Assembly (NCBI RefSeq): GCF_020150815.1
Contig: NZ_CP083723.1
Coordinates: 1,984,001-2,048,000, forward strand
Direction: 5' to 3'
Origin: Haloprofundus salilacus
GTDB taxonomy: Archaea; Halobacteriota; Halobacteria; Halobacteriales; Haloferacaceae
DNA length: 64,000 bases
Positions 18,599 to 53,330 of the stretch are shown here, one piece after another. Under the pieces are notes generated by a model. That model did not search any database. It had not been told where the DNA came from and saw nothing but the letters and a program-made list of their open reading frames with translations. Position numbers and translations under genes: made by a program. Positions within the stretch are counted from its first letter, which is position 1; every line of letters begins with the position of its first letter.

Positions 18599-19594
18599 TC
18601 AGAACTTGAACTCGACGCCCTCGGCGTCGAATCGACTCGACAGTCCCGCTCCGAGCGCGTACGCGACGCCTTCGGCACCCCGACGGAGTCGGACGGTGAG
18701 CCCTTGCTGCGGCTCGAACTTCTGGACCACCGCGTCGGCGCCAAGCAGTTCCGAGAGTCTCGCTTCCACGTCGTCGCGTGCGCCGAGTTCGTCGACGAGT
18801 CCCAGTTCGTGGGCGTCGGTGCCGATGTAGACGCGGGCTTCCGTCTCGCGAATCGTCTCGGGGTCCATGCCGCGCCCGTCGGCGACGCGCTCGACGAAGT
18901 GGTCGTAGAGTCGGTCGACGATCCCTTGCAGATACGCCCTGTCGTCGTCGGAGGGTTCCTTCAGCGCCAACCCCGCGTCCTTGTACTTCCCGGCGGCGAA
19001 GCGCTCGTAGGAGATGCCCAACTGCTCGGCGAGTTCGTGGACGTTCACCGACGAGCCGATGACGCCGATGCTCCCGACGATGCTCGCCTCGCGCGCCCAG
19101 AGTTCGTCGCAGCCGCTGGCTATCCAGTAGCCGCCGCTGGCACAGGTGTCAGTGGCGTAGGCGACGGTGGGGCCGTCGAACTCGACGGCGGCGTTTCGGA
19201 TGTCGTCGCTCGGGACGACTTCGCCGCCCGGCGTGTTCAGCCTGAGGAGGAGCGCCTCGGCGTCGCCGTCGTCGTCCGCCCGCTCTATTTGCTCGACGAC
19301 GTCGTCGGCGGGGGTTCCCACGCTCCCGGTCGGGAGCGGACCACGGCCACGATCCCGAGAGATGGGTCCCTGGACGGCGACTTCGGCGACGTTGTACGCC
19401 GAGACGCGGGAGGCGGCGATTCGCGACGCGAACCGCGCGCCGAGGGCAACGGTGACGAGCACGAGCACCACCCCGAGGAGGTCTTCGAGCGACTCCGGTA
19501 CGGACAGAAACAGTATCCAACCGACGACGGCAGCGACGAGGACCCCGAGGAGGACGATGACGACGCGTTCAGCCGTTACTTTCCGCGACTTCAC
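18599..19594 (-). CDS. sppA: Signal peptide peptidase SppA-type serine protease
   Basis: The 331-residue membrane protease has two N-terminal hydrophobic helices (VIVLLGVLVAAVVGWILF and LLGVVLVLVTVALGA) and an S49 protease domain. The catalytic Ser is in CASGGYWIASG and the general-base Lys in FAAGKYKDAG; LNTPGGEV is the oxyanion-side motif. Such enzymes cleave remnant signal peptides in the membrane. The start is GTG 19594; an in-frame TGA lies three codons upstream, so no longer protein is possible. A GGTGA sits 6 nt before the GTG. A short ATG ORF at the expected transcription start overlaps it (see findings). Confidence 0.9.
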   Translation of the reverse strand: MKSRKVTAERVVIVLLGVLVAAVVGWILFLSVPESLEDLLGVVLVLVTVALGARFASRIAASRVSAYNVAEVAVQGPISRDRGRGPLPTGSVGTPADDVVEQIERADDDGDAEALLLRLNTPGGEVVPSDDIRNAAVEFDGPTVAYATDTCASGGYWIASGCDELWAREASIVGSIGVIGSSVNVHELAEQLGISYERFAAGKYKDAGLALKEPSDDDRAYLQGIVDRLYDHFVERVADGRGMDPETIRETEARVYIGTDAHELGLVDELGARDDVEARLSELLGADAVVQKFEPQQGLTVRLRRGAEGVAYALGAGLSSRFDAEGVEFKF

Positions 19595-19611
19595 AGAGAT
19601 TCACCAGCCAT
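19591..19611 (-). CDS. Possible six-codon leaderless upstream ORF of sppA (MAGESL)
   Basis: ATG at 19611 opens a six-codon frame whose TGA overlaps the sppA GTG in the sequence GTGA. A TTTTAAG element centred near 19639 is 28 nt upstream of this ATG, so the transcript probably begins at or next to it. Translation of this mini-ORF is inferred from position only. Confidence 0.35.
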   Translation of the reverse strand: MAGESL

Positions 19612-51152: not shown

Positions 51153-51587
51153 TCAATCGGCCAGATTCTCCGACTCGACTTCGAGATACCGACACGCGTC
51201 GGTCTCAGGGTCGAAACAGTCGGGGCACTCCGAGCTCCGGTCGATGATAGTGTCGAGTCGCTCGGCGACGGTGTCGTCGATGACGCTCTCGAGTTCGCGG
51301 GCCTCGCCCCGGAAATCCTCGACTTCGAGGACGTTCGTGAGGAAGCGTTCGATGATGCAGTACGTCTGCAGCGCGTCGCGGGCGCGGACGATTCCCTCGT
51401 CGGAGAGGCGGACGCCTTTGTACTTCTCGTGCTCGGCGAGTCCGCGGTCTTCGAGTTTCCCGATCATCTCGTTGGCGCTCGCGGGACTCACGTCGAGCAT
51501 CTTCGCGAGAGCGCCCGTCGCCGCCGGCCCGTCCTCCATCTCCTGGATGAGGTAGATGGCTTTCAGATACTGGTCTGCCGTGTTCAT
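51153..51587 (-). CDS. DtxR/MntR-type metal-dependent transcriptional repressor
   Basis: The 144-residue protein begins with a winged helix (ADQYLKAIYLIQEMEDG, then MLDVSPASANEMIGKLEDRGLAE) and continues with the metal-binding/dimerisation domain (RARDALQTYCIIERFLTNVLEVE). C-terminal CPDCFDPETDAC adds Cys possibly binding metal. The family (DtxR, MntR, IdeR, SirR) represses iron or manganese uptake genes when metal is bound. It lies downstream of a ferritin-like gene on the same strand, 14 nt apart, consistent with a metal-handling operon. No SH3-like domain is present, so it is the short (MntR-like) form. Confidence 0.9.
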   Translation of the reverse strand: MNTADQYLKAIYLIQEMEDGPAATGALAKMLDVSPASANEMIGKLEDRGLAEHEKYKGVRLSDEGIVRARDALQTYCIIERFLTNVLEVEDFRGEARELESVIDDTVAERLDTIIDRSSECPDCFDPETDACRYLEVESENLAD

Positions 51588-51600
51588 CGGTTGACTCCGC

Positions 51601-52098
51601 TCATTCTCGTGTCTCCATGATCTTCGTCACCTCTTCGACGCCCTGGGCCTCCTCGGCGCGGATGTCGCGGAGGACCGAGAGCAAGCGGTCGCGCTTGACG
51701 GAGAACAACGCGTCGCTCGCCTCGATGCCCTCGATGAGGTCGTCGTAGAACTTGTACGCAGTCTCCTCGTTGCAGAGCTGGTCGTAGAGGACGCCGTCGA
51801 AGTCGTCGGGTTTCGTCTTCCCGTAGCGCGCTTCGACGAGTGTCTCGATGTCCTCGAACGGGATGCTCTCGGCGTCGAGTTCGTCGATAATCGCTTCCAG
51901 TCGCTGGCGGTGGTCGGCGGACTCGTCGGCGGCGTGTTCGAGCAGTTGCTCTATCTCCGCGTCGAGTTCGCGCTCGTCGGCGGACAGGGACTGGTAGTGG
52001 TGGTACGCTCGGGCCTCGACTACCTCTTCGAGCACGATTCCGATCTGCAGGAGGCGTGCGAGTTGGTGGTCCGAGCCCACGCGGTGGCCGACGCTCAC
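51601..52098 (-). CDS. Ferritin-like/rubrerythrin-type di-iron protein, GTG start
   Basis: A 165-residue four-helix protein with ferritin-like di-iron ligands: GIVLEEVVEARAYHHY (E and ExxH-like), EHAADESADHRQ, NEETAYKFYDDL and RDIRAEEAQGVEEV. It probably stores or detoxifies iron or peroxide. The start is GTG 52098, with GGAGGG at 52107-52112. An ATG ORF (MTDRVSNSNGGSTP) begins at 52139, exactly 27 nt after the centre of a CTTAAG element, and its TGA overlaps the GTG. It may be a small upstream ORF, or the true N terminus displaced by a one-base indel. Immediately precedes the DtxR regulator. Confidence 0.85.
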   Translation of the reverse strand: MSVGHRVGSDHQLARLLQIGIVLEEVVEARAYHHYQSLSADERELDAEIEQLLEHAADESADHRQRLEAIIDELDAESIPFEDIETLVEARYGKTKPDDFDGVLYDQLCNEETAYKFYDDLIEGIEASDALFSVKRDRLLSVLRDIRAEEAQGVEEVTKIMETRE

Positions 52099-52139
52099 GG
52101 GGTCGACCCTCCGTTGCTGTTCGATACCCTGTCGGTCAT
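52095..52139 (-). CDS. Possible 14-codon leaderless upstream ORF of the ferritin-like gene
   Basis: ATG 52139 opens MTDRVSNSNGGSTP and stops at TGA 52095-52097, overlapping the GTG of the ferritin-like gene (GTGA). The GGAGGG Shine-Dalgarno of the downstream gene lies inside it. The CTTAAG element at 52164-52169 is centred about 27 nt upstream. Translation is inferred from layout only; an indel that split one N terminus is the alternative. Confidence 0.35.
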   Translation of the reverse strand: MTDRVSNSNGGSTP

Positions 52140-52163
52140 ACCTCTTCGTCTGCGTGTGACGGA

Positions 52164-52169
52164 CTTAAG
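52164..52169 (-). promoter_or_regulatory. TATA-like element of the ferritin-like gene
   Basis: CTTAAG centred about 27 nt upstream of ATG 52139, so transcription should start at or next to that ATG rather than at the GTG. Confidence 0.45.
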
Positions 52170-52275
52170 CGGTTCCCTCTCACCGACGGACAGTTGGGGT
52201 CCGATTCCGACTCCGGTGGCGACGACGAGAGCAGCGACGACGACGCTGTATCCGGCCGAGACCGTCTGTCAGACT

Positions 52276-53175
52276 TCAGACGAACTCGCCATCGCTCTCG
52301 TACACGGTAGGGTCTTCGTTGTACTTCTCGGCGACCGTCGAGAGCGTCGTAAACTCGACGCCGTCTTGCGTTCCGACGTAATCTATGAACTCCTCCAACA
52401 GGGGAATCAACTGGGGCCGGCCGTGGACGTCGGGGTGGATCGTGAGCGTGTAAACGCCCGCCCCGCGCCGGTCGTAGAGGTAGTCGAAGTGTGACAGATA
52501 CAACTCCTCGTACACCATCTCAGGGCTGGTGTAGCCGTAGTTGTAGTTCGGCTGCTTGATGAACATCATCGGTGGCACGTCGTCGCGGTACCAGCTGATG
52601 GGTATCTCTACGATGTCGGTTTCCTCGCCGCGCTCGTACGGTTTCATCCACGTGTCGGCGCTCTCGTCGTAGTCGATGCGGTGCCACGCGTCTCCCGTCC
52701 GCATCGGCAGCGGCTCGAAGTCCCGGAGCATCAGGCTGCTGTCGTAGAGAAAGCCGTGTTTTTCCACGAGTTCGGGCGTGTTCTCGCTGAACTCCCACCA
52801 GCTCGCGCGGTGGCCGACCGGCGGCGATCCGGTCAGGTCCTCGATGAGATCCATCGACTTCGTCAGAATCGTTTCCTCCTGCTCGCGGGAGAGGTCCGTT
52901 GGGTTCTCGTGGCTGTAGCCGTGCGTGCCGATCTCGTGGCCGGCGTCGGCGACTGCGCCGCACTCCTCGGGGAACGTCTCGATGGTGTGGCCCGGGATGA
53001 ACCACGTCGTGTCGATGCCCTCGTCCTCGAACACCTGGAGGAGGCGCGGGATACCCTCCTCCCCCGCGAGGAGGCCCCGGGAGAGGTCCGCGGGGGAGTC
53101 TTCGCCGCCGTAGGAACCGAGCCATCCTGCCACGCAGTCCGCGTCGACGCCGATTGCGATGTCGATGTCGCCCAT
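52276..53175 (-). CDS. Polysaccharide deacetylase family protein
   Basis: The 299-residue protein has the NodB-fold motifs: AIGVDADCVAG near the start (catalytic Asp pair), WFIPGHTIETFPE, HEIGTHGYSHENP (metal His pair), and GHRASWWEFSENTPELVEKHGF. It would remove acetyl groups from sugars, or act in N-glycan or exopolysaccharide processing. No signal peptide is evident, so it may be cytoplasmic. It lies 155 nt downstream of the suf genes on the same strand. The longer open frame upstream has no coding bias; ATG 53175 is used. Confidence 0.85.
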   Translation of the reverse strand: MGDIDIAIGVDADCVAGWLGSYGGEDSPADLSRGLLAGEEGIPRLLQVFEDEGIDTTWFIPGHTIETFPEECGAVADAGHEIGTHGYSHENPTDLSREQEETILTKSMDLIEDLTGSPPVGHRASWWEFSENTPELVEKHGFLYDSSLMLRDFEPLPMRTGDAWHRIDYDESADTWMKPYERGEETDIVEIPISWYRDDVPPMMFIKQPNYNYGYTSPEMVYEELYLSHFDYLYDRRGAGVYTLTIHPDVHGRPQLIPLLEEFIDYVGTQDGVEFTTLSTVAEKYNEDPTVYESDGEFV

Positions 53176-53330
53176 GTTTCGGTCGTGCGATACGTGTTGG
53201 CATGGCTCTTCGCAGCCGTCGGCTGGGCGACGGGTCTCCGCGTGAGACGGTCGCTGCGGCTGTCTTCGAGATAGAATTCGCCGTGTCTCCGACGAGCAAA
53301 TAAAAAGCGAATCGAGTTGTCGTCTGCGGC

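Follow-up and report, generated by a model that had tools for sequence, protein, structure and literature searches.

The ferritin-dtxR locus and its leader reading frame

The 64,000-nt stretch of Haloprofundus salilacus DNA analysed here (the window) contains, on the minus strand, a gene for a ferritin-like protein of 165 amino acids (51601..52098), which begins with GTG and is followed, 13 nt downstream and in the same operon direction, by a gene for a DtxR-family metal regulator (51153..51587). Upstream of the ferritin gene lie a polysaccharide deacetylase gene (52276-53262, minus strand), then sufD, from which the deacetylase gene separates it, and sufB. A gap of about 1.2 kb between sufD and the ferritin gene was also seen in the orthologous locus L003, whereas the gap is no longer than 141-173 nt in L004 and L005.

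Directly before the ferritin gene, and on the same strand, a mini-ORF of 14 codons is present (52095..52139; MTDRVSNSNGGSTP). It starts with an ATG at 52139, and its TGA (52097-52095) overlaps the ferritin GTG (52098-52096), the two codons sharing the sequence GTGA (52095..52098; a -4 overlap). Inside the mini-ORF there is a GTATCG element (52122..52127) and, 8 nt before the GTG, a GGAGGG (52107..52112), which is the putative Shine-Dalgarno (SD) sequence of the ferritin gene; the anti-SD sequence GGATCACCTCCT occurs twice in the genome. The candidate leader promoter consists of a TATA-like box, CTTAAG (52169-52164), and an AGGGAAC (52172..52178) which is conserved in 47 genera immediately before TTAAG and probably serves as a BRE-like element. 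Between the box and the leader ATG there are 24 nt; the distance of 27 nt given in the original prediction holds for the centre of the box and not for its edges, which lie 30 nt (start) and 25 nt (end) before the A.

The ferritin-like protein matched no Pfam or NCBIfam family above cut-off. Its AlphaFold model (51 orthologues, pLDDT 78) gave Dps and bacterioferritin as the best PDB matches (probability 1.00, TM about 0.7, E 0.003-0.05), and residues E25, E28, H63, E112 and E150 are invariant, which makes 'ferritin-like' a reasonable, though not proven, label. The neighbouring regulator gene is genuine, as had been proposed (PF01325, 4e-18; PF02742, 3e-9), and a dtxR-like gene follows the ferritin gene in 169 of 170 loci. 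Judging by gene context, it presumably corresponds to Haloferax TroR (HVO_0863), which was named as a regulator of iron homeostasis (PMC11349517). For HVO_0862, the presumed Haloferax orthologue of the ferritin gene by gene order, no match was found in the literature searched.

Conservation of the leader phase and of the start signals

Orthologous loci were collected from 80 contigs and about 100 further genomes, representing Haloferacaceae and other haloarchaeal families of the order. We retained 170 distinct upstream regions, 36 of which have a ferritin ATG that is itself at a leaderless position (self-leaderless) and 134 of which do not. All five Haloprofundus genomes keep the leader ATG, the 14 codons, GTGA and GGAGGG without any indel, while the peptide differs at several positions. 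Among the 134 distinct starts that are not self-leaderless, 125 are preceded by an open leader ORF of 6-20 codons ending in an RTGA overlap, and in five further orthologues an ATG or GTG in the same phase is located farther out. The orthologue set was partly picked for having a leader ORF; however, unselected counts of upstream ATG codons within 95 nt of the 134 starts agree with this result, being 143, 14 and 4 in phases 2, 1 and 0, respectively. When collapsed by genus, the nearest ATG was in the leader phase in 43 of 46 and 14 of 15 genera, and the leader stop occupied the overlap position in 103 of the 110 orthologues with a scored leaderless-position ATG.

Parsimony on a ferritin protein tree (one quick single-gene tree made with FastTree, on which both counts depend) gave about 40 changes of leader length versus one change of phase, an outcome with P of about 7e-18 if the phase were free to vary. 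Retention of the phase through some 40 changes of length indicates that it is under selection, and thus that the leader ORF is, in all likelihood, read by ribosomes. The 4-nt overlap is not universal, as in Halocatena (L067, L092) and in L146 a phase-1 leader reaches 28 nt into the ferritin gene before it stops. A separate observation concerns Haloferax larsenii and H. elongans (L056, L057), whose leader (MNEVSRSNQ.CLA) resembles that of Halogranum, most other Haloferax leaders being of the type MYVAGPCLRT..., suggesting that upstream regions may have been exchanged in these two species.

Comparison with the self-leaderless relatives, mainly Natrialbaceae, is instructive with respect to the start signals. 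These 36 orthologues lack a leader ORF, and their TATA box is 29-30 nt away from the ATG of the ferritin gene itself (36/36). The same spacing, counted from the start of the TATA-like box, separates the box from the leader ATG in most of the remaining orthologues, which would place the transcript 5' end at or next to that codon. The ferritin gene starts with GTG in 98 of 125 leader-bearing loci versus none of the 36 self-leaderless ones, all of which use ATG (P 5e-19), and an SD core is found in 116 of 125 leaders (49 in shuffled sequences) versus 4 of 36 self-leaderless upstream regions (4.1 expected; P 3e-21), although both Fisher P values are inflated by kinship of the sequences. Halorubrum leaders have weak SDs (GGTG). 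Where sufD is the immediate upstream neighbour, the arrangement shifts in the way predicted: L151 lacks the leader, and only 2 nt separate the sufD stop from the ferritin start, whereas L062, L066 and L114 (Halalkalicoccus-like) have a leader that begins 5-6 nt beyond the stop of sufD and has no TATA box. These sufD-coupled exceptions fit the pattern, in that a ribosome would be delivered by some route in each of them. The promoter core AGGGAACnGCTTAAGTC (52164-52178, minus strand) is strongly conserved in 47 genera, including a C located 16 nt downstream of the T that opens TTAAG, and may be a site for a regulator besides its BRE/TATA function.

Thus, the leader layout is real and far from what chance would produce. 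A mini-ORF at the leaderless position, the TGA/GTG overlap and an internal GGAGGG serving the ferritin GTG had all been predicted from the single locus, and comparison of orthologues backs each of them. The same prediction counted three such layouts in the window. The ferritin leader is one and sppA (S49 peptidase; 18599-19611, minus strand) is another, its GTG at 19594 being preceded by a 6-codon mini-ORF, MAGESL, which starts at 19611 in leaderless position and ends in GTGA; this arrangement was also found in three other Haloprofundus species checked, and relatives' peptides read MTGVQP, MAGIPP and MAGVLP. For the HD gene, the third of the proposed cases, no layout meeting the same definition was found in the window. 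In a 464-kb sample of the genome, window included, four of 586 genes have the layout, versus 0-1 when the TATA box was displaced, and two of these four fall within the 64,000 nt. Two further leaderless-position mini-ORFs with a 4-nt overlap were read in this sample, at L223:12949-12992 (plus strand; MPLVENQRRGSETT) and in L225 (minus strand; MTRRQRRGWR). Such layouts are probably a minor, yet real, class.

Proposed ribosome delivery and alternative explanations

The explanation that we favour, with a probability of about 0.82, is that a leaderless mini-cistron loads ribosomes and hands them to the ferritin gene by termination-reinitiation, the peptide itself being irrelevant. According to this proposal, the promoter would set the 5' end of the transcript at, or immediately beside, the start codon of the 14-codon mini-ORF, ribosomes would begin there by leaderless initiation and read on to the TGA, and the internal GGAGGG would help them to reinitiate at the overlapping ferritin GTG. 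Start, frame and stop overlap of the mini-ORF would then matter, and its product would not. In this way ferritin and dtxR could be translated despite a ferritin start codon, GTG in most cases, that is some 40 nt away from the 5' end. It was shown previously that 72% of protein-coding transcripts in Haloferax are leaderless and that leaderless GUG starts were inefficient in haloarchaeal tests (PMC4983044), that SD sequences in Haloferax are inactive in 5'-UTRs while contributing to reinitiation at gene overlaps (PMC6728339), and that no other gene-pair arrangement is nearly as common as the -4 overlap (PMC10666635). To bring a ribosome to a start codon 40 nt from the 5' end, this machinery would need a leaderless mini-ORF combined with RTGA and an internal SD. 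The conserved phase and overlap, the SD enrichment, the association with GTG and the neutral drift of the peptide were established by comparison of orthologues; translation of the mini-ORF, its position at the 5' end and the reinitiation step are what we infer from them.

Could the leader instead encode a functional small protein? Its frame is open in every species and V-S is frequent in the middle of the peptide; on the other hand, pN/pS is close to 1 (1.06, 0.90 and 1.09 in three groups; a Haloferax group of four sequences gave 2.24), lengths range from 6 to 20 codons, and the peptides are unrelated between genera. The V-S pair reflects the GTATCG element, which is also found in another codon phase. 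By comparison, then, the peptide appears to evolve neutrally, with no particular sequence required, and a functional product is highly improbable. Even less credit, close to none, can be given to the idea, part of the original prediction, that the peptide once formed the N terminus of the ferritin and was detached from it by an indel, or to its variant, according to which the CCCC run contains a sequencing error. A one-base insertion would indeed join both frames; however, the two frames and RTGA are preserved in all five Haloprofundus genomes and in 125 orthologues, none of the orthologues carries the peptide joined to the ferritin, and dozens of genera have the leader in a phase of its own. 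Moreover, the ferritin begins at one and the same residue, with the same M/V-S start, in relatives with and without a leader. A fusion or programmed frameshift was rejected as well, as none of the orthologues is fused, variation just ahead of the overlap is unrestricted and, by eye, no conserved slippery site is present.

A different set of alternatives involves regulation. GYATCG occurs in 70 of the 125 leaders, in 31 genera, 6-19 nt after the leader ATG, and its flanks are unconserved. One could therefore regard the leader DNA mainly as a binding site for a regulator downstream of the transcription start, with the open frame as a by-product. This seems quite improbable, because retention of the phase over 40 changes of length, RTGA, SD enrichment and the association with GTG would be left unexplained, and 55 leaders do without the element. 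A binding site may nevertheless exist alongside ribosome delivery, which in turn leaves GYATCG unexplained. The element is not palindromic and stands in another codon phase in seven loci; as a DtxR operator it was discarded, since no dyad is seen in the sequences flanking the conserved motif. One other site of the TTAAG-ATG-GTATCG type was found in the organism's own genome. Alternatively, the leader might act as a valve, with iron, Fe-S, amino-acid or ribosome state changing how often ribosomes finish it or reinitiate, and so tuning translation of ferritin and dtxR. Its conservation beside a DtxR/TroR-type gene and the suf genes, the iron-related role of TroR in Haloferax (PMC11349517) and the nucleotide-level conservation of GYATCG within it are in favour of such a function. 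However, no regulatory codon run was found in the leaders, whose composition resembles that of alternative frames, and no peptide is conserved; the RNA fold of 63 leaders did not exceed that of shuffled sequences (mean z 0.08), Rfam yielded no riboswitch at gathering level (one chance-level match only), and the leader was lost in lineages that keep ferritin-dtxR. We consider a valve unlikely. Iron-linked control by the leader, as originally suggested on account of the DtxR neighbour, thus has gene context in its favour and neither conserved peptide, codon signature nor RNA fold; any iron response is more likely to take place at the promoter. A leaderless ferritin gene, as in Natrialbaceae, would seem the simpler solution, so the ribosome-delivery account may overlook some additional benefit for regulation. 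A composite model, in which haloarchaea possess a class of delivery-only mini-cistrons and this particular one is additionally a valve (responding to iron or ribosome state, perhaps through GYATCG) that sets ferritin and DtxR/TroR levels post-transcriptionally, is speculative and, in our opinion, rather doubtful.

Relation to known systems and significance

The closest counterpart of the proposed ribosome delivery is provided by the leaderless small ORFs of mycobacteria coupled by RTGA (Shell et al. 2015, PMC4633059), in which TGA likewise overlaps the RTG of the next gene and for which peptide-independent ribosome delivery was also proposed; a review names this role of leaderless small ORFs (PMC12548453). 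The mycobacterial ORFs are bacterial and supported by RNA-seq and ribosome profiling, whereas the ferritin leader is archaeal and known by comparison only. Here, in turn, one locus could be tracked across dozens of genera, in which the peptides evolve neutrally and some 40 changes of length have mostly preserved the phase. Within haloarchaea, termination-reinitiation in Haloferax volcanii (Huber et al. 2019, PMC6728339; PMC10666635) shares with the ferritin leader the -4 overlap and the SD before the restart, but it joins full genes, while the upstream cistron described here is a mini-ORF that can be dispensed with and is predicted to open the message. The Haloferax uORFs (PMC4983044) are also short ORFs, of 15-31 amino acids, upstream of normal genes; they were sought only in 5'-UTRs of 150-250 nt and judged by isoelectric point, in contrast to a leader of about 40 nt whose stop overlaps the start of the gene. 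Mycobacterial poly-cysteine attenuators (Canestrari et al. 2020, cited in PMC9094748) similarly place a leaderless short ORF before a gene, but the ferritin leader has no conserved codon run. No earlier report of the ferritin leader was found in the literature searched, which did not extend to key Haloferax ribosome-profiling papers. On the basis of these sequence comparisons, which are unusually strong for a single locus of this kind, we regard it as probably a new and well conserved archaeal example of an RTGA-coupled leaderless small ORF.

A real question raised by this locus is how a GTG gene with a short leader is translated where leaderless initiation dominates and SD sequences are reportedly inactive in 5'-UTRs. 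The locus constitutes a natural comparative test, as lineages switch between a leaderless ferritin gene, a mini-ORF that would hand ribosomes over and coupling to sufD, and both SD and GTG follow these switches. Annotation easily overlooks mini-ORFs of this kind; the locus argues that archaea, too, may employ disposable mini-ORFs to deliver ribosomes, as has been proposed for mycobacteria.
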